Of a stretch of DNA of 64,000 nt, positions 244 through 10,714 are shown in pieces. The stretch is from a bacterium. Its GTDB lineage: Bacteria > Actinomycetota > Acidimicrobiia > Acidimicrobiales > Bin134. The translations under genes were made by a program, and so were the position numbers. The notes beneath the pieces were generated by a model. It ran no database searches and had not been told where the DNA came from. It saw only the letters and a program-made list of their open reading frames with translations. Position 1 is the first letter of the stretch, and the number at the start of each line of letters is the position of its first letter. The stretch is from positions 1-64,000 of the forward strand of contig JAPPAP010000029.1 in the NCBI GenBank assembly GCA_026705465.1, given 5' to 3'.

Positions 244-675
244 ATGAGGTTGCAACTGGCGTTGAACGTGTCCGATCTGGAAGAGGCATTGGAGTTCTAC
301 TCCCGCCTCTTCGGCGTGGAGCCGGCTCGGCGGCGGCCGGGGTACGCCAACTTCGCCATCGACCAACCGCCGCTCAAGCTGGTGCTATTCGAGGCCGGCC
401 ACAGTGCAACCGACGAAGAAGGGTGCTGCAACGGCGTCGGCGGCACGATCAACCACCTAGGGGTAGAGGTCGAGACCACCGAGGAGGTGCTCGACGCCGA
501 ACGCCGCATAAGCAAGTCGGGCCTGGCCACCTCTGGGGTGGATGACACTCAGTGCTGTTTCGCCGAGAAGACCGAGACCTGGATCACCGACCCCGACGGC
601 ACCGCCTGGGAGTGGTACGTCCGCACCGGCGACAGCGAAGTCCTACAAAACGTGGTGCTCACCACCCGCAGCTGA
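244..675 (+). CDS. ArsI/CadI-like vicinal-oxygen-chelate (glyoxalase-fold) protein
   Basis: This is a 143-aa protein of the glyoxalase/bleomycin-resistance/extradiol-dioxygenase fold. The N-terminal half (LALNVSDLEEALEFYSRLF) and the C-terminal WITDPDGTAWEWY strand are typical. The adjacent cysteines C104-C105 (DTQCCFAEK) just before that strand recall CadI (cadmium-induced) and ArsI (C-As lyase) proteins, where a vicinal Cys pair binds the thiophilic substrate. A second pair, C61-C62, lies in the central loop. In this fold the metal ligands would be about H71 and the Glu in WEWY. The start is fixed by AGGAGG at 233-238. No ars regulator or transporter is nearby, so an organoarsenical or metal role is suggested only by family resemblance. 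Confidence 0.75.
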   Translation: MRLQLALNVSDLEEALEFYSRLFGVEPARRRPGYANFAIDQPPLKLVLFEAGHSATDEEGCCNGVGGTINHLGVEVETTEEVLDAERRISKSGLATSGVDDTQCCFAEKTETWITDPDGTAWEWYVRTGDSEVLQNVVLTTRS

Positions 676-727: not shown

Positions 728-755
728 TTGATATCTGAATTAATTCAGATATTCT
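728..755 (+). promoter_or_regulatory. Toxin-antitoxin promoter covered by a perfect 22-bp palindrome
   Basis: Bases 731-752 form a perfect inverted repeat: half-site ATATCTGAATT followed directly by its reverse complement. A plausible promoter overlaps it, with TTGATA at 728-733, a 16-nt spacer and TATTCT at 750-755. The start codon follows after 6 nt, with no Shine-Dalgarno, so the mRNA is probably leaderless. A protein bound to the palindrome would cover both the -35 and -10 boxes, which is how type II antitoxins commonly autoregulate. The palindrome is seen directly; the promoter and its function are inferred. Confidence 0.75.
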
Positions 756-761
756 GACTCG

Positions 762-1226
762 ATGCAGGTCATTGAACGCACCTTCTCCGAGTTCCTCCGG
801 CAGCCGAAAGAGGTGACGGCCGACCTCTCCCAGCACGACGTGGTGCTGCGCCGGCGCAATGCCCCCGATCTTTATCTCAGCCTCGCCGCCCGCGACACAA
901 GCAGGGCTAAGACCATCGAATGTCTGGCCCGCCTTCTCCGCAAAATTTCTGCAGATTCTCCCGAGGCCATGGATGACGCCATTGAGGCCGCCTTCCCCTG
1001 GGTCGAATTCCTCTCTGCCGATGGCCGTCGCGAATTCGTCGAGGATCTGACGCGGACCATTCTGGCCTCAGCAAGCGTCGAGAGCTTTGAACCAGTCGAT
1101 CTCACCATCGACTCTTGGCAGAATACGGCCGAAATTCTCAGCGACCCCGAACTCACTGCCCTGCTCTCCGGTCCCTTCACCATCACCCACGGTGGACGCG
1201 CCATTCCTCCCCCCGCCGTCGACTGA
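762..1226 (+). CDS. Type II toxin-antitoxin system antitoxin (Phd-like)
   Basis: This is a 154-aa protein with no signal peptide or membrane segment. Its first 45 residues (FSEFLRQPKEVTADLSQHDVVLRRRNAPDLYLSLAARD) resemble the Phd/YefM fold, a small DNA-binding dimerisation domain with a strand ending on a hydrophobic 'LYLS' motif. The rest is mostly acidic helix, suited to wrapping a basic toxin. The stop overlaps the next gene's start (TGATG at 1224-1228), implying translational coupling in antitoxin-first order. The operator at 731-752 lies 9 nt upstream of the start. At 154 aa it is longer than classical Phd antitoxins (70-90 aa). The family assignment is by resemblance, and the pairing rests on the downstream toxin. 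Confidence 0.7.
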   Translation: MQVIERTFSEFLRQPKEVTADLSQHDVVLRRRNAPDLYLSLAARDTSRAKTIECLARLLRKISADSPEAMDDAIEAAFPWVEFLSADGRREFVEDLTRTILASASVESFEPVDLTIDSWQNTAEILSDPELTALLSGPFTITHGGRAIPPPAVD

Positions 1227-1570
1227 TGCCCCGTCGCCGGGACCGAGTCGCCCCACCGCCGCGCAAAGGCGGATGGGACTGCCGTTTCGCCAGCAACGAC
1301 GCAGCCAAGTCTTGGGAGCAACTCAGCGCCTCTGTCCCCAACAACGTCCGAGCGGCATGGGGGCTCATCACCGCCGATCCCCGGCGTTGGGATAAGCGCC
1401 AAAAGCCACTCAAAGGCGATTTGGCCACGGCAGTGGTCAATGGCATAGAGATGCCCCAGTGGCAATACGAGGTCACCGGCAGCGGCCGCATCTGGTACTG
1501 CATTGACGACGACAAGAAAACCATCTGGGTGACCGCCGTCCACCCCGGCCACCCCAAAGCCACCCAGTGA
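1226..1570 (+). CDS. Type II toxin, RelE/ParE-superfamily-like
   Basis: This is a 114-aa, very basic protein beginning MPRRRDRVAPPPRKGGWDCRF. Its core is a helix with W and R residues (WEQLSASVPNNVRAAWGLI), then 'KGDLATAVVNG', then strands 'WQYEVTGSGRIWYCIDDDKKTIWVTAVHPGHP'. This layout, two helices followed by an antiparallel sheet in the order RIWY-x6-K-x-IWV, is that of RelE/ParE/HigB-type mRNA-interferase or gyrase-poison folds, and matches a recurrent actinobacterial toxin paired with Phd-like antitoxins. The start overlaps the antitoxin stop by one base. Whether the target is ribosome-bound mRNA or gyrase cannot be read from the sequence. Confidence 0.75.
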   Translation: MPRRRDRVAPPPRKGGWDCRFASNDAAKSWEQLSASVPNNVRAAWGLITADPRRWDKRQKPLKGDLATAVVNGIEMPQWQYEVTGSGRIWYCIDDDKKTIWVTAVHPGHPKATQ

Positions 1571-1629
1571 GGGCTTTATAAACATACGGTGGGGACTAGC
1601 TGTCACACTTCGCAAGTAAGGTTCCCGCC

Positions 1630-4600
1630 GTGGCTGATCAGGTACAAACAAAGCCAGACTCCTCAGCCGGCAGCCCAGTCTTCCGTCTTGAGTTTCCTGG
1701 CTGCAGCGGCACCGGCGTATTGCTCCCTGACGGACGATTCCTGGTTCGTGAAGGTGCGGTAGGACGTGCCGAGACGATTGCGTCGTTCGACAAGCATGCC
1801 AATAAGTACCGACGGCAGCTTCGCAAGGAACTGCTTGACGACGGCACTCTCCTAGTCGATGGCGACAGTGCGGTGTTGACCCGTGACTGGGAATTCAATT
1901 CACCGAGCGCTGCTGGCGCGGTGCTAACAGGTAGCCACAGTACTTGGCTTGACAAGTGGCAAGACGACGACGGCAAGAAGTTACGGGAGTACCTGCGCAT
2001 CGAGTCGAGCAATTCCGGCGATGGTGGCCCTGACCCCGAGCGCGTATCACCGGGGGAGATCGAGTTCCGACAGCTTTGGTACGAAGCGCATGTTGCACGA
2101 TTCGCTGCCGATGAAGACCACTGGCGGCAGGCCAAGGCCGCTACCGACGGATTCAAGGCAAGTGCGGACGAAGCGTTGCAACTTCTAGCCGAACTCCGAC
2201 ATCCAGACGACGTGAAATTGTTCAAAGAACGGATGGAAGCGTGGTCACGCAAGCCAGGAACCTTGGCGTTCAAGGGTCAGAACGGTCAGATGCTGTTGAA
2301 CCAACTCGTCAATCGGTCAGAAGACCATCAAGGGCTGGTATTTCTGCTGAGAGATTCCCTGACTACGCCGACCTCCGAAGAAGAGGCAGTAGCCAAGATT
2401 CAGAGAGTTGTAGAACACGTCAAGAGCATTAAGGTGGGATCCCACCCGGCCCCAGGCAATGTGCCGTTCCTCCTGTCGTATTTCTGGGCACTTGCTGACT
2501 GGGAACGCTGGCCAGTGATGTGGCCAAGTGCTGTCCGCTTCATTGAGTTCTCTACCGGTGAAAACCTCCCAGATGATCCCGCTGAGAAGTATCGGGTGTT
2601 CATCGAGAGGGTTCGGGAACTTACCTCCAACCATCTTGAGTTTGAGACCACCGCTGCATGGTGGCAAGAACAACGGCCTGTGTTCGTTGATGAAGTTCTG
2701 GCGGATCGCGCCGCGTTCGGGCTCGACACCGAGACTGCGGCGAAAGGTGACCTGGAGATCAATGCCTGGGCCCTAGTGAGCATCGCGAAATATTGGGGCA
2801 AACGGCTTGTCGACGATGTCGCGGAAGCGCTCGGCCACCCAGTCAAGGTGACCGTGCCGAAAGACAGCAGTGCCAGGACCGACCTATGGGTGGATTGGCG
2901 AGTCAACAAGGCCGCCGAAAATGGCCTCAGCATGAGGGTTTGGGTAAACGAGCAGGGTGCAGCGGTTGCCCTGCGACCAGGAATAAACCCTCAAGGCTGG
3001 ATGGAAAAGGTTGCGCCGGTCCTCTCTTCAGCCCCGCACGACGGCTGTCAGGTTCTCGGCGGTTCAAGCTCCCAAATCGGCGAGGATGTCGGGCTCCGCG
3101 GGGGACACTGGGCAGAATTCGTCTACGGACGCTGGTTCGACCGGGAAGAACTCGCCGATGTCGACCTGGCTGCCACGGTTGTTGAGACGGCTGCGCAACT
3201 GAAGCCCCTGTTTGACGAGCTCCTAGCCCTTGCGGGGAAGGTACCGACGACACCTGTGATTCGAAGCGACGATCCGTTGGCATCGTATGTCGAGAGATTC
3301 CGAACTGGAGAGGGATATCCGAGAGACTGGGATGCGAGTCACATGGACGAGCAGCGTCGATTCGCCAGAATGCTCGCGCCAGATTCAATCTCCCAAGCTG
3401 AACGCGCTGAAGTCCGCAAGATCTGGAGTGGTGGCGGATATGGCGGCACAGGGCCAATGCCATTGTTGAATAGATCGCTCAAGGAGGCTGACGAAGCCGA
3501 GTATGACCGCATCATGCAATCATTCCGGTACTTGTGCTGGGGAGAAGGCCCTGACGCAGGGCGAATCGACAGGCTTCTCGAAGACCAGGAGTCTCGTATC
3601 AAGGGGCTGGGCGAATCGGTGATAATGAAGCTCCTAGCGATCACGCATCCCGAGAAATATCTTTGCGTGTATCCCCAAGGCGGCGAGAAGGGAAAACGAG
3701 CGATGCTCTCCCTTCTCGAACTCGACGAACCAACTGGATCTCGCGGTGAGGTCCATGTGAATTCCAACAGGATATTGCGAAGCCGCCTAGAGCCGTTTTT
3801 CCCTGATGACCCTTGGGGAATGTCGCAGTTCCTCTATTGGTTCCAATGGCAAAAGACTCTGGAGCAAGAAGGAATTGACGACATCCCCCCTAGTCTGGAG
3901 ACGCTTCTGGACCAACTGGCAAAGGATCTGCTCGTTGACCAGAGCTTCTTGGAAGACATCGTCGAGTTGTTGGAAGACAAGGGGCAGGTGATCTTCTACG
4001 GGCCGCCTGGGACAGGGAAGACTTATCTGGCTCGGGAGCTTGCCAGGGTATTGGCACCTGATCCCGGGCAGCGGGCACTGGTTCAGTTTCATCCTTCTAG
4101 TTCCTATGAGGACTTCTTCGAGGGGTACCGACCCCAAGCTGACAGCGGCGACATGACCTACGAGCTCACACACGGTCCATTGGCGGATATGGCACAGCGG
4201 GCGGCGGATCCCCCAGGCGGACGGCATGTGATGATCATCGACGAGATCAACCGGGCAAACTTGCCCAAGGTGTTCGGCGAGTTGCTGTTCCTTTTGGAGT
4301 ACCGCGACGAGAGCGTGCGCACGCTCTACCGGCCCGACGATGCCTTCGAACTCCCCCGCAACCTGTGGTTTATCGGCACCATGAACACCGCTGATCGTTC
4401 CATCGCCCTTGTGGATGCTGCACTGCGGCGCCGGTTCCACTTCATCCCGTTCTTTCCCAATCGGTGGCCGATAGAAGGGCTACTTGAGCGCTGGCTGGCC
4501 GCCAACGACGAGCCGAGTTGGGTGGGCGAGCTAGTGGCCCAAGTCAACGATGAACTCGACAGAGAGTTGGGCGGGCCTCACCTGCTGCTGGGACCAAGCC

Positions 4601-4833
4601 ACTTCATGAAGAAGGGCCTCAACGAGGAGACGATGGGCCGCATTTGGAAGTACAACATCGAGCCATTCATCGAAGACCAGTTCTTCGGCGACCGCGATCA
4701 GATCGACTACTTCCGCTTCGATCAGGTTTACAAGCGTTATCTCGATTCTTTGGGACGCTCAGAAGCAGCTGAGGACGAGGCCGCTGCCCAAGCAGAATTG
4801 GAGGGCGGTACGGAATTGACCCCAGATCAGTGA
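1630..4833 (+). CDS. mcrB: McrB-type restriction NTPase with N-terminal DUF4357-like domain
   Basis: This 1067-aa protein is the motor and DNA-recognition subunit of a McrBC-type modification-dependent restriction system. The N-terminus (about 18-121) resembles DUF4357, with the hallmark 'FNSPSAAGAVLTG' and W-x-x-W-x-x-x-x-GK. A long helical middle region follows (about 140-770). The AAA+ module has Walker A GPPGTGKT at 791-798, Walker B MIIDEINRAN at 868-877 and the McrB signature MNTADRS at 918. In McrB proteins the N-terminal domain reads modified DNA while the AAA+ hexamer hydrolyses GTP; DUF4357 as reader is inferred. The start is GTG with TAAGGT 7 nt upstream and no Shine-Dalgarno. The stop overlaps mcrC by 4 nt. 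The 5' two-thirds is lower in G+C than neighbouring genes, suggesting transfer. Confidence 0.92.
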   Translation: MADQVQTKPDSSAGSPVFRLEFPGCSGTGVLLPDGRFLVREGAVGRAETIASFDKHANKYRRQLRKELLDDGTLLVDGDSAVLTRDWEFNSPSAAGAVLTGSHSTWLDKWQDDDGKKLREYLRIESSNSGDGGPDPERVSPGEIEFRQLWYEAHVARFAADEDHWRQAKAATDGFKASADEALQLLAELRHPDDVKLFKERMEAWSRKPGTLAFKGQNGQMLLNQLVNRSEDHQGLVFLLRDSLTTPTSEEEAVAKIQRVVEHVKSIKVGSHPAPGNVPFLLSYFWALADWERWPVMWPSAVRFIEFSTGENLPDDPAEKYRVFIERVRELTSNHLEFETTAAWWQEQRPVFVDEVLADRAAFGLDTETAAKGDLEINAWALVSIAKYWGKRLVDDVAEALGHPVKVTVPKDSSARTDLWVDWRVNKAAENGLSMRVWVNEQGAAVALRPGINPQGWMEKVAPVLSSAPHDGCQVLGGSSSQIGEDVGLRGGHWAEFVYGRWFDREELADVDLAATVVETAAQLKPLFDELLALAGKVPTTPVIRSDDPLASYVERFRTGEGYPRDWDASHMDEQRRFARMLAPDSISQAERAEVRKIWSGGGYGGTGPMPLLNRSLKEADEAEYDRIMQSFRYLCWGEGPDAGRIDRLLEDQESRIKGLGESVIMKLLAITHPEKYLCVYPQGGEKGKRAMLSLLELDEPTGSRGEVHVNSNRILRSRLEPFFPDDPWGMSQFLYWFQWQKTLEQEGIDDIPPSLETLLDQLAKDLLVDQSFLEDIVELLEDKGQVIFYGPPGTGKTYLARELARVLAPDPGQRALVQFHPSSSYEDFFEGYRPQADSGDMTYELTHGPLADMAQRAADPPGGRHVMIIDEINRANLPKVFGELLFLLEYRDESVRTLYRPDDAFELPRNLWFIGTMNTADRSIALVDAALRRRFHFIPFFPNRWPIEGLLERWLAANDEPSWVGELVAQVNDELDRELGGPHLLLGPSHFMKKGLNEETMGRIWKYNIEPFIEDQFFGDRDQIDYFRFDQVYKRYLDSLGRSEAAEDEAAAQAELEGGTELTPDQ

Positions 4834-6062
4834 GCGACCTAATCGAACTCTTTGAGTACGAGTCGACCTCGGTCGGTCTCACTCAGCGCCAAGTGCAGCG
4901 CCTCGCTGCCTTGGGCAAGGGCGCGGTCACGGTGGAGCCCGCAGGCCAAGCCGACCAATACTCGATCACCGCCCAGAACATGGTAGGCACCCTGGTTGTC
5001 GATGATCTCCGAGTACTGATCCGCCCGAAGATTCGCCCAGAAAATCTCTTTCTGCTTTTGGAAGTGGGGCTTGACGAAAAAGCTTGGCGGCAGGAGGCCT
5101 TCGACTATGCGAAGAAGGCCGACCTCCTTCCCTCGGTGATCGCCTTCTATGCCCGGACTCTAGAGACCACTCTGGCCCGCGGGCTACTGCGGTCGTATCG
5201 GCCCGAGGAGGATCGTCTGATCGCGCTTCGGGGGCGTATCGATATCGCCGGGCAGTTCCGCCAAGCAGGAATCCGGGTGCCGGTAGCGTGCCGTTTCGAC
5301 GAGTACACCTCCGACATCGCCGAGAACCGCTATCTGAAGGCCGCGACCCGACTGGCGTTGAGAGTTCCCGGTGTGGCTTCAGAGGATCGTCAACGATTGC
5401 TCCGGGAGGTCGTCTCACTGGAGGATGTGGCAAACATCCACGTTGAACCTGACGAACTCGACCGAATTGCATTCACCCGATTGAACGCCCACTATCAGCC
5501 TGCGCTGCGCCTCGCCCAGCTACTACTCGCGAACCTGACTCTGGCCGACCAGCTTGGCAAACGCGCCGCTTCGTCGTTCCTGGTGGACATGAACCAACTC
5601 TTCGAAGACTTTGTCATGCAGCGTTTGCGGCGTGCGTTGCGGGGCCGTCTCGAGGTAGCGAGCCAATTGAGAACCTACTTGGCAACTCGCAATCAGGTGC
5701 CGGTCCGACCCGACTTGGTGTTCCGCAGGCAGGGCCAAGAGGTCTATGTGGCCGACATCAAGTACAAGCTCACGGACGATGCCCGGGCCCGAACCGCCGA
5801 CTACTACCAACTCCTGGCCTACACCACGGCGCTGGACCTGCCTGAGGGTGTATTGATCTACTGCATGGCCGACGGAGGAGAGCCCGAAAGCACCATCACC
5901 GTCCGCCACGCCGGAAAGCTTCTCCACACCCTGGCCATCAATCTCAGCGGGTCGCCCACCGAAGTGGCCGAAGAAATCGCCAAGGCCGCCATCTGGATCA
6001 ATCAGCGTGCCCAGACAATCCACCCGTCGATTACCCCTGTTCGACGAAAGCCAGCAGCTTGA
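4830..6062 (+). CDS. mcrC: McrC-like nuclease subunit of the McrBC system
   Basis: This 410-aa protein is the endonuclease partner of the upstream McrB-type NTPase. The N-terminal half carries the McrC beta-rich region that bridges to the McrB ring (ITAQNMVGTLVVDDLRVLIRPKI), then 'LRGRIDIAGQFRQ' and 'DIAENRYLKAA'. The C-terminal PD-(D/E)xK nuclease is recognisable: 'NQLFEDFV', D295 in RPDLVF, and D309-x-K311 in VADIKYK, as expected for metal-dependent cleavage. The GTG start overlaps the mcrB stop as GTGA, so the two are cotranslated. Its last 32 bases overlap the 3' end of the convergent PLD-like gene. Length and motif order match full-length McrC, with no sign of decay. Confidence 0.92.
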   Translation: MSDLIELFEYESTSVGLTQRQVQRLAALGKGAVTVEPAGQADQYSITAQNMVGTLVVDDLRVLIRPKIRPENLFLLLEVGLDEKAWRQEAFDYAKKADLLPSVIAFYARTLETTLARGLLRSYRPEEDRLIALRGRIDIAGQFRQAGIRVPVACRFDEYTSDIAENRYLKAATRLALRVPGVASEDRQRLLREVVSLEDVANIHVEPDELDRIAFTRLNAHYQPALRLAQLLLANLTLADQLGKRAASSFLVDMNQLFEDFVMQRLRRALRGRLEVASQLRTYLATRNQVPVRPDLVFRRQGQEVYVADIKYKLTDDARARTADYYQLLAYTTALDLPEGVLIYCMADGGEPESTITVRHAGKLLHTLAINLSGSPTEVAEEIAKAAIWINQRAQTIHPSITPVRRKPAA

Positions 6063-6684
6063 TCCGCGCCCAGAGGTTTGCGGCAGCGTGAGCTGGGATC
6101 AACGCCAACGCTGGAAGGCAGCCGCCTTTGCTGGTCGCGGCCTGGGGCTTGTCCTTCGCTGCGGACCTCGCAGGCGCGTCCTTGGTCACGAACCCGATGA
6201 GCTTGTCGTTGGCCGGTGGATATCTTGTGGCCTCGGCGATGTAGGCGTCGATCTCATGCAATTCGCCAGGGTCGCAGCGCACCATTAGCTCTAGGTTGTC
6301 GGATAGGCCTTTGTCCGTGAGGTTTGCCGAGCCGACCAAGGCAGCCACTGCCTTATATCCGCCACCTTGGAGAGCAACCACTGCCTTCCCATGGGCAATC
6401 TTCTTGACCGGCTTCTGGCGATACCAGTTATGTACCTTTACGTCGCCTCGGCGAAGGAACGCAGCGGCGACCCTTCGATCGTCTTCTGTCGCGACTGCGA
6501 ATGATTGCTCGGTCATGTCACCAATGACGATGGTGACCCTTTGGCCACTGCCGACTTGCCTGGCCAACCATGCCAGTCCCTTGACGGAAGCGGACCCCGT
6601 GCAGACCACTACATCGTCACCGCGGTACTCGTCCAGAAACGCCTTGATCTTGCGCGCGGGTTGAGACGGGCCTCGGTCATTCAC
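6031..6684 (-). CDS. PLD-like (HKD) phosphodiesterase/nuclease domain protein
   Basis: This 217-aa protein has one phospholipase-D-type active-site motif: H98-x-K100 (IAHGKAVVAL) followed by GSANLTDKGLSDN (from 118), the HxK...GSxxN signature of PLD-superfamily nucleases. The Asp usually found five residues after the Lys is Leu here. A single motif implies a dimer, as in BfiI and Nuc. There is no signal peptide, so a cytoplasmic nucleic-acid substrate is more likely than a lipid. I chose the GTG start because TAGTCT (minus strand, 6693-6698) sits 8 nt upstream; an in-frame ATG lies 21 nt further out. It converges on mcrC with a 32-nt overlap, and its position suggests a defence role. Confidence 0.75.
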   Translation of the reverse strand: MNDRGPSQPARKIKAFLDEYRGDDVVVCTGSASVKGLAWLARQVGSGQRVTIVIGDMTEQSFAVATEDDRRVAAAFLRRGDVKVHNWYRQKPVKKIAHGKAVVALQGGGYKAVAALVGSANLTDKGLSDNLELMVRCDPGELHEIDAYIAEATRYPPANDKLIGFVTKDAPARSAAKDKPQAATSKGGCLPALALIPAHAAANLWARIKLLAFVEQG

Positions 6685-6843
6685 CGCGTCGGAGACTAGG
6701 CACATACAGCCAGCTGCGCCACAGCGGATCGAAACTGAAGGCAGCGCGGCACCTGATTCGACCGCTGCTCATCTGCAACAAGTTGGGGGCCGTTGCAGTC
6801 GGTCAAAGACAAGCTGTCACTGGCCATCGGTATAGTGCTCGTC

Positions 6844-8037
6844 ATGGCTTATGGGGCTGTGACCAGGGATTTTGAGGTCACTTTGGAGATACCCGCGGCA
6901 GATCCGGCGGACATGTCGGGCGACCAGCGGCGAGCGGCTCTGGCATCCATACGCCGTGTTGAGGCCCGGCTGGCCGGATGGAAGGCACGGCTGGTCAACG
7001 CGGAGCGCGATCAGCATGGCGTGGGCGCAGCCGAGATGGCCGTCCGGGAGGAGCTTCAGGCTTCCAAGCGGGAAGCCAGGCGGGATGTGGAAACCGCAAC
7101 CAGCTTGTCTGGGCTGGCCGAGACTTGGAGGGCTCTCGAAGCTGGGGAAATCCCGCAGAAGCACGCCTGGCTGATCGCCAGAGCTTCAGCAGAGGGGCCG
7201 ATTGATGAGACCGCCTTGACTGAGGCGGCTAGACACCAGCCCTACGACCAGTTTGCCCGCACCCTCCGCCAGCAGCAACGGGAGCTCTCAGAAGATGACG
7301 GTCAGTCGATTCTGGATCGCCAACGCGAGAAGCGCTGGGCAAAGATGTTTGAGAGCCGGGAAGATGGGATGTTCGTGGTGTCTGGCGAATTCGACCCCAT
7401 CACCGGCAATCGGATTGCCTTGGCAATCTCCGACAAAGAGCGAGAATTGTGGCGCAAGGAAGACCCAAAGAACCGGCGCACCCCTCAACAGCGGATGGCC
7501 GACGCGCTGGCTGAGTTAATTCTCGAGCCGAAGTCAGGCCAGCCGCCTCGCACCGCATTGCTAGTGATAGCCGACTACAACGCCGTTCACCGGGAGTTGG
7601 CAAATGCCCGGCTGTGCGATGGCACGCCCATTCCGTTGGGCGAATTGCGCCGGTTGGCCTGTGATGCCGACATCCTGCCCGCCGTGTTCCGAGCCAAGAC
7701 CCAGAAACTCTGGCTGGGTCGAAAGCGGCGGATAGCCACTGAGGCCCAGAGGGCCGCTTTGGCACTTCGAGACAAAGGTTGCATCGGCTGCGATGCCAAC
7801 CCCGCCTGGTGCCAAGCGCACCACATCCAGCCTTGGTCCTGGGGCGGGCCGACCAACCTGGACAATTTGGTCATGGTGTGCGCGAGGTGCCATCACCGCA
7901 TCCATAACGACGGTTGGGAGGTAGCCAAGTGTCCCACCACCGGGCGACATGACCTGCGACCCCCGCCCGAGCCGTTCCCCGAATACGGCACTGCCATCGA
8001 CCGACCACCTCAGCGAAACCCGGTGCTCTTGAACTGA
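6844..8037 (+). CDS. DUF222 (13E12-type) HNH endonuclease domain protein
   Basis: This 397-aa protein has an N-terminal helical DUF222/13E12 region, rich in charged helices (ADMSGDQRRAALASIRRVEARL...) with an A-W-L-I-A-R helix. It ends in an HNH nuclease: CIGCDANPAWCQAHHIQPWSWGGPTNLDNLVMVCARCHHRIHNDGW. The CxxC and CxxC pairs bind zinc and H-H-I...N...H are the expected metal and catalytic positions. Such genes are multicopy in many actinobacteria and their function is not established. The ATG at 6844 is preferred because TATAGT (6831-6836) precedes it by 7 nt; an in-frame TTG at 6793 would lengthen it. It is not part of an intron or a transposase. Confidence 0.85.
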   Translation: MAYGAVTRDFEVTLEIPAADPADMSGDQRRAALASIRRVEARLAGWKARLVNAERDQHGVGAAEMAVREELQASKREARRDVETATSLSGLAETWRALEAGEIPQKHAWLIARASAEGPIDETALTEAARHQPYDQFARTLRQQQRELSEDDGQSILDRQREKRWAKMFESREDGMFVVSGEFDPITGNRIALAISDKERELWRKEDPKNRRTPQQRMADALAELILEPKSGQPPRTALLVIADYNAVHRELANARLCDGTPIPLGELRRLACDADILPAVFRAKTQKLWLGRKRRIATEAQRAALALRDKGCIGCDANPAWCQAHHIQPWSWGGPTNLDNLVMVCARCHHRIHNDGWEVAKCPTTGRHDLRPPPEPFPEYGTAIDRPPQRNPVLLN

Positions 8038-8231
8038 AGATCACCCGCTGGGCAAGCGGCAATGCCCGCTGCTGGTCTCTGAAGTCCCGAACGCCGGCAA
8101 TGGATAGCCGCCAAGCCGCACTCGAACCTTGACAATTGAATTTGGCAAACCGCCTCTACATCCATGGGGTGGACCTGCGTGGATCGGCCCTGCGAATGAA
8201 ACCAACCTTGGGGTTTGTAAGTTGGTTGATG

Positions 8232-9218
8232 ATGGTCAAGAAAGTCTCGGATGGCAGGGCGCCAGTGTTGTGGTGCCGCTGGCCTTGTAGCCGAGTGGGG
8301 CGCCAACTTGGCCGGATCGGACTGATTTTGGTTGTTGGTTCCGCAATCGCCGTCGTTCTTGCTGGGTGTGGGAGGTCATCTGACCAGGAAGCCAGCATCT
8401 CTGCTGCGATTGCTGGTGAATCGGGGATAGACGCCTCAGAAGGCGAAGGGGTCCGCTTCACAGATGTGGCCACCGGTGGGAATCACAGGTGGAATTTCTC
8501 ATGCGGGCTGCGCGCCGATGGGACTGCTCAATGTTGGGGCAAACGCTCCAACGACGGTATAGAAGCGCCTGAAGGGGAGTTCACGGCCATGACTGCCGGT
8601 TACCAACACTTGTGCGGGCTGCACGCCGACGGAACCGCCGATTGCTGGGGCTATACGGCGGGTGCCCCTGAAGGCCAGTTCACCGCCATTTCAGCGGGTG
8701 GAGACCATTCATGCGGCTTGTACGTCGACGGAACCGTCATTTGCTGGGGCCAAGATTGGGCGGGGCAAGCCGATGCCCCCGGCGGCCATTTCACAGCCAT
8801 CTCAGCTGGGTCGTCCCATTCGTGCGGGCTCAGGACTGACAGAACCATCGAATGCTGGGGGTTCACCGACGGAGGACGGATTGGTGCCCCTGGAGGGCAT
8901 TTCACCGCGATCTCAGCTGGTGGAGTCAATTCCTGCGGGCACAGGACCGACGGAACTATCCAATGTTGGGGCAACAACGATGCTCCTCAGGGTCAGTTCA
9001 CTGCCATTTCCGCCGGTGAGAGGCATTCCTGCGGGCTCAGGACCGACGGAACTATCGAATGCTGGGGCGACAACGATTTTGGCCAGTCGAATGCACCAAG
9101 GGGCCACTTCACCACCATCTCAGCCGATTGGATGCACTCCTGCGGGCTCAGGACCGACGGAACTATCGAATGCTGGGGCGACAACCGGAACGGCCAACTG
9201 GACGTGCCTTCAGGCTAG
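8232..9218 (+). CDS. RCC1-repeat lipoprotein
   Basis: This predicted exported lipoprotein of 328 aa has a basic N-region, a hydrophobic stretch (LGRIGLILVVGSAIAVVLAGC) and a lipobox LAGC whose Cys would be lipidated. The mature part is seven tandem repeats of 32-40 aa with the pattern FTAISAG-x-x-HSCGLRTDGTIECWG, matching RCC1-type beta-propeller blades. Each repeat has a conserved C-G and C-W-G pair, giving about fourteen cysteines and possible blade disulfides. The sequence ends right after blade seven. The last blades are nearly identical in DNA, indicating recent duplication. The start is uncertain: TAAGTT (8218-8223) lies 8 nt before this ATG and 5 nt before another at 8229. The binding partner is unknown. 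Confidence 0.75.
   Translation: MVKKVSDGRAPVLWCRWPCSRVGRQLGRIGLILVVGSAIAVVLAGCGRSSDQEASISAAIAGESGIDASEGEGVRFTDVATGGNHRWNFSCGLRADGTAQCWGKRSNDGIEAPEGEFTAMTAGYQHLCGLHADGTADCWGYTAGAPEGQFTAISAGGDHSCGLYVDGTVICWGQDWAGQADAPGGHFTAISAGSSHSCGLRTDRTIECWGFTDGGRIGAPGGHFTAISAGGVNSCGHRTDGTIQCWGNNDAPQGQFTAISAGERHSCGLRTDGTIECWGDNDFGQSNAPRGHFTTISADWMHSCGLRTDGTIECWGDNRNGQLDVPSG
9027..9185 (+). repeat. Two identical 48-bp direct repeats, period 111 bp (RCC1 blades)
   Basis: Bases 9027-9074 and 9138-9185 are identical and separated by exactly 37 codons. A diverged copy begins near 8930. These encode SCGLRTDGTIECWGDN in successive propeller blades, so this is internal gene duplication rather than a noncoding repeat. 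Confidence 0.9.
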
Positions 9219-9253: not shown

Positions 9254-10714
9254 TCACACCAGGTTTTCGACGAAGCCTTCGAGCTGGCGGAGGTTGCGGA
9301 CTTCGAAGACTCCGTCGCAGTGGACGCCGTATTCAGAGACGATGGAGTCGCCGGTGTCCCAGTAGGCGCCGGGCTCGGGGTTGAGCCAGAACACCTTGCG
9401 GGCTCGGTGCTCGATCTCTTTGAGGATCCAGGCCTGGGAGGCGTGGTAGTTGTTGCGGGCGTCGCCCAGGATCATCACCGTGGTCTTGGGGCCGACGTCT
9501 TTGCCATAGCGCTCCCAGAACACCTCGAAGGCGTGGCCGTAGTCGGAGTGGCCGTCCACCCACACCACGTCGGCCTCGGCGTTCACTCGGTGGACGGCCT
9601 CGCCGATGTCGTCCACCCCCTCGAAGAAGCTGGTCACCTCGTCGAGGCCGTCGATGAACACAAATGAGCGCACCTTGGAGAACTGGTTGCTGATGGCGTA
9701 CACCAAATGCAGGGTGAATCGGGCGAAGGCGGCCACCGACCCGCTCACATCGGCCACCACCATGATCTCGGGCTTGGCCGGCCGGGGGTAGCGGAATTTG
9801 GGCTCGGCCGGCACGCCTCCGTAGGAGAGGGAGTGGCGCATGGTGTTGCGAAAGTCCAGCGGGCCCTTTCGCCCATGGCGGCGCTTGCGGGCCAGCCGCA
9901 CGGCCAGCTTGCGGGTGAGCGGGTAGATGGCCCGGCGCAGGGCCATCATCTCCTCCCGGCTAGCGTGCATGAAGTCCACGTCTTCGGGCAGGGGCTTGCG
10001 AAGCGTCTTAGCCATGGCCTCCACTCCCCGGTCGGCCACCAGCCGGCGGCGGATCTCGGCCTCCACCTCCTTGCGGAGCTGGTCGATGCGGGCCTCGAAC
10101 TCGTCGCGCTCCAGCCGTTCCTCAAGAGGCGTCAGATCGCCGGGGGCATCATGGCGGGCCTGATCCATCAGACGATCCAGCACGCCATCGAGGTCGAGGT
10201 TTCGCAGTGTGCGATACAGGTAGTAAGTACCGCCCACCGGTCGACCCGGCTCCATGCCGGCGTAGCGCTGCACCGCCTGGCGGGCGATGGCCCGCATGAG
10301 GGCGTCATCGCCCCGCATGAGCGCCTGGAACAGCATCTCGGCCAGCTGTTCGGCCGACATGGCCTCGCCGCCTCCACCGCCCTGGCGGCGCTGCTGGCCG
10401 TCCAACCCGTCGACGAAGTCGGACAAGTCCATGCCCTCGGGCCACTCCCCGTCCACCAGGTCGTATTCCGCCCCCCGCAGCGAGAAATACACCTCGAAGA
10501 CCGTCTCGAAGGCTCGCCAGTGGGCATGGTTCTTCACCAGGGTGGCGGCCAGGGCGTATTTGAACGCATCCCGGTCCTCGATGGGGATGTGCTGGATGGC
10601 CTCCATGGCGTCCAGGTTCTCGGTCAGGCTCACCGGCAAACCGGCGGCCCGCAGCTCGGAGATGAACCCGGCCAGAAGCGCCAGCAGCGGCGAGGTGGCG
10701 GGCTCGACTTTCAT
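9254..10714 (-). CDS. VWA domain protein, CoxE-like
   Basis: This 486-aa cytoplasmic protein has no signal or membrane segment. The N-terminal two-thirds is helical and charged, with a Q/R/G-rich linker (DGQQRRQGGGGGE, about 104-116). The C-terminal third is a von Willebrand A domain starting 'PEIMVVADVSGSVAAFARFT', whose D-x-S-x-S forms the MIDAS metal site, followed by 'VFIDGLDEV' and 'TTVMILGDARNN'. This is the CoxE-like architecture, which works with a MoxR-type ATPase in maturing metalloenzymes such as CO dehydrogenase. It lies 21 nt downstream of the MoxR gene. No cox structural genes are near, so the client is unknown. Confidence 0.85.
   Translation of the reverse strand: MKVEPATSPLLALLAGFISELRAAGLPVSLTENLDAMEAIQHIPIEDRDAFKYALAATLVKNHAHWRAFETVFEVYFSLRGAEYDLVDGEWPEGMDLSDFVDGLDGQQRRQGGGGGEAMSAEQLAEMLFQALMRGDDALMRAIARQAVQRYAGMEPGRPVGGTYYLYRTLRNLDLDGVLDRLMDQARHDAPGDLTPLEERLERDEFEARIDQLRKEVEAEIRRRLVADRGVEAMAKTLRKPLPEDVDFMHASREEMMALRRAIYPLTRKLAVRLARKRRHGRKGPLDFRNTMRHSLSYGGVPAEPKFRYPRPAKPEIMVVADVSGSVAAFARFTLHLVYAISNQFSKVRSFVFIDGLDEVTSFFEGVDDIGEAVHRVNAEADVVWVDGHSDYGHAFEVFWERYGKDVGPKTTVMILGDARNNYHASQAWILKEIEHRARKVFWLNPEPGAYWDTGDSIVSEYGVHCDGVFEVRNLRQLEGFVENLV

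Follow-up and report, generated by a model that had tools for sequence, protein, structure and literature searches.

In this article, we examine a stretch of 64,000 nucleotides from a bacterium of the Acidimicrobiales (Bin134; assembly GCA_026705465.1, contig JAPPAP010000029.1, positions 1 to 64,000; hereafter the window), and particularly a toxin-antitoxin (TA) pair, a two-gene McrBC restriction system and a phospholipase D (PLD)-like protein that lie side by side near its start. All three have described counterparts. The TA pair can be set beside YoeB-YefM and RelBE2 of Mycobacterium tuberculosis, with which it shares a toxin of predicted RelE fold, a Phd/YefM antitoxin placed first in the operon, a 1-nt overlap between the two genes and a palindromic operator in the promoter. 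It departs from them in that the toxin matches none of the Pfam or NCBIfam models tested and has about 17 extra N-terminal residues, that the antitoxin ends in a helical DUF6247-like domain, and that the pair is annotated as hypothetical on plasmids. McrBC of Escherichia coli K-12 has the same mcrB-mcrC order with a short overlap, the same NxxD GTPase (MNTADRS) and an McrC that has PF10117 together with a PD...DxK motif, whereas the McrB considered here carries DUF4357 and about 600 unannotated amino acids in place of the DUF3578/ADAM methylcytosine domain. In the CoCoNuTs (PMC11090510), as in our locus, a RelE-type toxin is encoded immediately upstream of an McrBC-type system and in the same direction; the locus differs from them by an NxxD rather than an NxD motif and by a TA in which both partners are present, under an operator of their own. 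DrmC of DISARM, NgoFVII and the BfiI-type nucleases carry one H-x-K...N...E motif per chain, as does the PLD protein of the window, which adds to it a C-terminal hydrophobic tail. In Type I restriction, specificity can be switched by recombination in hsdS. Here too the part that recognises the target has been replaced in place and the rest of the locus kept, but the system is of Type IV and the unit comprises mcrB and the beginning of mcrC.

We will argue that the segment holding these genes is a defence hotspot of independent modules, in which the specificity of McrB has been exchanged in place, a reading to which we give a probability of about 0.8. It draws on the computed gene content, folds, operator conservation, orthologous and empty sites, lack of association elsewhere and mosaic structure of mcrBC.

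One orthologous site with changing content

The locus was compared across 22 genomes of the genus, which groups sponge-associated Acidimicrobiia and has Candidatus Poriferisocius aerobius (Acidimicrobiales) among its members; most of these genomes are draft metagenome-assembled genomes, and the site is cut by contig ends in some of them (G302, G306). In the genus, the TA, McrBC and PLD genes occupy a single orthologous site, between a VOC-fold ArsI/CadI-type gene on the left (244-675, plus strand; NF041414 at E 2.4e-45 and 153.7 bits, for a cut-off of 116) and a CoxE/VWA gene on the right (9254-10714, minus strand; 97-100% identity across most genus copies). The VOC orthologue adjoins the site in filled and empty genomes alike, the empty ones (G244, G303, G300, G119 and G282) having only 19 nt between VOC and CoxE.

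Between these anchors, the content changes from one genome to another. In the genome of the window (G000), as in G201 and G308, the TA is followed by mcrB, mcrC, a convergent PLD gene and an HNH gene, while in G176 a divergent PLD gene precedes TA, mcrB, mcrC and HNH, and in G302 the contig ends after PLD and TA. G304 has the order TA-PLD-TA without McrBC (L136:7776-10366), and its tandem TA copies could recombine and thereby delete PLD. TA and McrBC are found without PLD in G301, an antitoxin with a broken toxin and McrBC in G305, a toxin fragment with McrBC in G085, the TA with a remnant of mcrC in G224, the TA without McrBC in G299, and McrBC without the TA in G298. Further alleles hold NUDIX-, RpiB-, methyltransferase- and VapBC-like genes, recognised by their translations alone. 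Since the cargo varies in this way among alleles, the site is a general hotspot. This bears out the accessory setting proposed in a preliminary description of the window; the low G+C content also claimed there holds in its direction (59.0% in the block and 57.6% in mcrB, versus 65.1% in the window beyond 9254), but the difference is only modest in size. According to one report (PMC5099237), defence features abound in sponge-associated communities, which fits the setting.

Association beyond the genus

The reading of TA, McrBC and PLD as a single multi-gene system is not supported, as they were found together neither in other lineages nor at sites independent of this one. A scan of 84,980 genomes for the TA family gave 79 loci, of which 7 (L205-L211) belong to the genus and have the site. 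In the 72 others, McrC, McrB or PLD was never found within 8 kb of the TA (0/72), some of the contigs extending less than 8 kb on one side; two of these loci (L223 and L229) come from additional genomes of the genus, in which a more distant copy of the toxin lies at another place. A PF10117 gene is present in 11 of the 48 genomes with TA relatives that were searched, and the contig coordinates indicate no copy near the TA, except perhaps in G310, where one may lie at a distance of about 8 kb. PLD relatives of less than 50% identity (L172-L188) likewise have no McrBC or TA nearby. PADLOC did report defence families near PLD and near TA relatives, which we do not count as enrichment, the search having had no random-gene control. 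The toxin family is also carried by 33 actinobacterial plasmids, 23 of them from Rhodococcus, and is annotated as hypothetical wherever the annotation was read; phage records gave no toxin relative.

The preliminary description had presented the three elements as one defence block, and had held that a lack of enrichment of PLD and TA homologues near mcrBC would speak against it. As far as independent association is concerned, this lack is what the survey returned, and the claim finds no support. The three occur together locally because they share one orthologous hotspot whose content changes.

Exchange of mcrB together with the start of mcrC

In the window, mcrB (1630-4833, plus strand) starts with a GTG at 1630 and overlaps mcrC (4830-6062, plus strand) by 4 nt. 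When G000 is compared with G201 and G308 in sliding windows, identity is 85-96% over the TA, about 45-80% from about 1590 to about 5190, and mostly 80-96% from there on. The synonymous divergence (pS) between the same genomes reaches 0.60-0.78 in mcrB and stays at 0.17-0.35 in VOC, antitoxin, toxin, mcrC, PLD, HNH and CoxE, and the exchanged part of G000 resembles G305, G301 and G176. Informative sites, counted as those uniting G000 with G201 against those uniting G000 with G305, number 87:17 in the TA, 52:132 over the mcrB GTPase and, within mcrC, 30:56 for codons 1-120 and 134:37 beyond them, with a switch at about 5190 (Fisher p 1.4e-11 between these two parts of mcrC). This switch falls inside mcrC, so mcrB moved together with the mcrC start: mcrB and the first ~120 codons of mcrC (1590-5190) have been exchanged as a unit, and the TA, the nuclease half of McrC, PLD and the flanks have not. 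Because the N-terminal domain of McrC contacts the McrB ring (PMC11090510), the natural interpretation would be a joint exchange of the matched contact parts of both proteins. The McrB proteins of G201 and G308 lack the DUF4357 region, which is in line with an altered choice of target.

Pfam families and motifs identify the two proteins as McrB and McrC, in agreement with the preliminary description. McrB matches AAA_5 (E 2.3e-22), and structures of E. coli McrB align to it at E 2.5e-44; DUF4357 (residues 65-118) is followed by unannotated central regions (residues 136-740) and by a GTPase AAA domain (residues ~785-945) whose GPPGTGKT, IIDEINRAN and MNTADRS motifs provide Walker A, Walker B and NxxD. 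McrC matches PF10117 at E 2.5e-56 over residues 47-344, with a DUF2357-type N-terminus and a PD-(D/E)xK nuclease, its translation reading RPD...ADIK near the C-terminus. Searches of PDB sequences with both central regions of McrB gave nothing useful, and the idea that these two regions are repeats was rejected (hhalign probability 1.1). We also rejected membership of the CoCoNuTs, the GTPase motif being NxxD and not NxD, and none of the neighbouring genes tested being a coiled-coil, helicase, HEPN or RtcR partner. A second, distant McrBC pair lies on another contig of the same genome (G000:C2:9421-11421), with PF10117 at E 1.1e-20 and an McrB-like GTPase of 38% identity.

The leader of mcrB (1571-1629, plus strand) may contain a promoter of its own. 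The pattern GTCAC-N10-TAnnnT is found about 8 nt from the mcrB start codon, in leaders of 50-65 nt, in G000, G201, G308, G301, G305 and G085, and with a GTCAT variant in G176. It also precedes mcrB genes that have no TA, namely a second copy in G201 and a copy in G119 with N9 spacing. As this element stands before mcrB with or without the TA, it suggests that mcrB has a promoter separate from that of the TA.

The toxin-antitoxin pair and its operator

The antitoxin (762-1226) and toxin (1226-1570) open reading frames are both on the plus strand and overlap by 1 nt (TGATG); a gap of 59 nt (1571-1629) separates the toxin from mcrB. Neither protein reaches a cut-off among the Pfam and NCBIfam models tested, and PDB sequence searches with both of them gave nothing useful, so their assignment comes from predicted structures, for which TA relatives were collected to build deep alignments. 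The AlphaFold2 model of the antitoxin (pLDDT 89) matches YefM and Phd antitoxins over its first ~50 residues (in Foldseek, the probability reaches 1.00 and the target TM 0.79), the E-values being weak because just one third of the chain aligns. Among its relatives, 35 of 48 match DUF6247, a family of which we found no mention in the literature searched, and 2 of 48 match PhdYeFM_antitox. The toxin model (pLDDT 83) matches RelE of Thermus thermophilus (E 1.7e-4) and RelBE2 of M. tuberculosis (E 3.5e-4), its sequence matches PHROG 1213, a RelE-like toxin family (E 3.8e-4), and nine residues are invariant in 66 relatives (W30, R58, Q78, W79, Q80, E82, R88, W90 and D94). According to these models, the toxin is of the RelE (BECR) fold and the antitoxin has a Phd/YefM DNA-binding domain, as in type II TA systems. 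The first ~28-32 residues of the toxin recur at 68-73% identity in separate open frames of 85 amino acids (G201:C17:33796-33888, G307:C59:21531-21620 and G306:C36:7520-7606), as if this N-terminal piece were common to another small gene.

The promoter of the pair (728-755, plus strand) consists of a -35 box (TTGATA, 728-733), a 16-nt spacer and a -10 box (TATTCT, 750-755), and between these boxes lies a perfect palindrome of 22 bp (731-752, ATATCTGAATTAATTCAGATAT), the putative operator. The whole window contains only two perfect 18-bp palindromes, and TCTGAANTANTTCAGA has one match in it for 0 expected. No other sigma-70-like promoter was found between 600 and 7000, where the chance expectation of such scans is 1.7. 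The antitoxin ATG, at 762, follows the -10 box closely, and the transcript is probably leaderless. Among relatives, 38 of 65 loci carry TCTGA-N6-TCAGA (at most one mismatch), in most cases 24-30 nt upstream of the antitoxin start, against a rate of ~0.2% in windows of 50 nt drawn at random from these loci; these relatives are spread across the Actinomycetota and the DNA around them is unrelated. The recurrence of the palindrome core before the same pair therefore strongly supports a predicted autoregulation through an operator in the promoter, which agrees with what the preliminary description had proposed. Diverged members of the family, in Mycobacterium and on Rhodococcus plasmids, have related but different operator sites. 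Two operator variants, ATCTGATTATAATCAGAT from Deltaproteobacteria and TTCTGAAAAAGTTCAGAA from several Actinomycetota, were noted among the loci L228 (upstream of 2587), L242, L254, L256, L266, L278 and L282, and offer a graded set for the study of operator-antitoxin co-evolution.

The PLD protein and the neighbouring genes

The PLD gene (6031-6705, minus strand) runs 32 nt (6031-6062) into the 3' end of mcrC. The layout first described for the locus, with the TA 59 nt before mcrBC on the same strand and PLD converging on mcrC, is thus read directly on the sequence. The single-motif identity given to the PLD protein is also upheld: it scores 29.7 bits with PLDc_2 (PF13091) for a cut-off of 27, reaches the gathering score of PF09565 as well, and has one motif (H105xK107 ... 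GSAN(128)LT ... N137xE139) that is invariant or nearly so in 20 relatives. With one motif per chain, a homodimeric nuclease or phosphodiesterase is likely, BfiI and Nuc being the analogues. Several relatives have a clear hydrophobic C-terminal segment (maximum Kyte-Doolittle mean above 2), and the protein of the window has a weaker one (1.24) after GCLPAL, making a membrane-associated form possible. The downstream convergent and upstream divergent placements of PLD correspond to two sequence groups about 65% identical. A PLD profile gave only weak matches among PDB sequences, to NgoFVII, BfiI-type and NucT nucleases, and the viral contigs searched gave only two relatives, both weak. Membership of DISARM was rejected, with 27.4 bits for the DrmC equivalog (cut-off 133) and mcrC and HNH as neighbours, no DISARM genes adjoining. 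Ratios of nonsynonymous to synonymous substitution (dN/dS) of ~0.09-0.25 in the measured parts of the TA, McrBC and PLD indicate purifying selection.

Two variable hotspot genes separate PLD from CoxE: an HNH endonuclease-domain protein (6793-8037, plus strand; PF01844 at E 9.7e-9), present only in some alleles, and an RCC1-repeat protein (8136-9218, plus strand), found in G176 and missing in G201. Elsewhere, three PLD relatives of sponge-type Acidimicrobiia adjoin a gene of ~430-450 amino acids, upstream of it on the same strand (L178:5291-7719, L180:4420-6788 and L184:6801-9220). PADLOC confirmed PDC-S19 beside PLD relatives in L178 and L180, three neighbours in total match PDC-S19 and DUF3644, and this recurrent PLD/PDC-S19 pair merits separate attention.

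Independent modules or an integrated system

In the reading that we prefer, the biochemical activities and the DNA target are what we infer from these data, together with the mcrB promoter and any benefit of the TA to the stability of the locus. The TA would be self-contained, its Phd/YefM-type antitoxin binding the palindrome at 731-752 and repressing the leaderless promoter, and the RelE-fold toxin, once freed, would most likely cleave mRNA on the ribosome. McrBC, probably under its own promoter, would act as a Type IV restriction system in which the N-terminal and central regions of McrB recognise modified DNA, the GTPase ring translocates and McrC cleaves, and the choice of target would shift by recombination replacing mcrB and the McrB-docking N-terminal part of McrC. 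The PLD protein would be a third module, a nuclease that is probably a homodimer.

A more integrated picture, raised in the preliminary description, is a defence in two layers, where McrBC would first cut modified phage DNA and the RelE toxin would serve as an abortive-infection back-up when restriction fails. In G000, G201, G308, G176 and G301, the TA does stand directly before mcrB and shares its strand, and BrnT-like RelE toxins encoded immediately upstream of RtcR-associated McrBC-type CoCoNuTs provide a precedent (PMC11090510), given which such a coupling would not be a new category. We nevertheless find it very improbable, as the TA family was not found with McrBC outside this hotspot, G305 and G085 have a damaged toxin next to an intact McrBC and G298 has no toxin, the TA persists without an intact McrBC in G304 and G224, and a leader element of its own seems to precede mcrB. 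It is also unlikely that the PLD protein works as a third subunit of McrBC, akin to a restriction or accessory nuclease. That its gene converges on mcrC with a 32-nt overlap in G201 and G308 too, that it is under purifying selection and that its homologues resemble DrmC and NgoFVII-type nucleases would fit this role, but it is missing beside McrBC in G301, G305, G085 and G298, accompanies the TA without McrBC in G304, lies on the opposite side of the block in G176, and has distant relatives without McrBC nearby.

A third proposal, which is compatible with independent modules and which we hold as a tentative possibility, is that the TA is an addiction module stabilising the hotspot, the loss of linked genes being punished by toxin release. 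Genes linked to a chromosomal TA module can be stabilised by it (PMC3874152), the same family resides on the 33 plasmids, mostly of Rhodococcus, and the TA is kept where McrBC is a remnant (G224) or absent (G304); the empty sites and broken toxins show, however, that neither the locus nor the toxin is safe from loss. We consider it improbable that a formerly free TA was recruited in the genus as guard of a specificity-switching Type IV locus, in which recombination swaps mcrB along with the docking region of McrC and the self-regulated TA and PLD stay as fixed frame genes. Some observations do weigh against a full independence of the modules. Of the 12 genomes in which the site shows some trace of the TA, 8 have TA and McrBC together there, and their association may bring some functional benefit within the genus. 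All six close PLD copies (at least 64% identity) lie within ~4.5 kb of the TA, in two different positions, a closeness that could hint at a link. The proposed mcrB promoter is a sequence pattern, and transcription from the TA might read through into mcrB.

What the hotspot means

Independent modules in one hotspot correct the tempting reading of a three-part defence system. What is robust instead is a widespread TA family, so far annotated as hypothetical, whose palindromic operator recurs across the phylum. Robust too is a Type IV locus where the gene that recognises the target was exchanged jointly with the region of its partner that makes the matching contact. This exchange in mcrBC can serve as an experiment made by nature, from which to learn which residues of McrC have to match McrB and how targets change in such systems.

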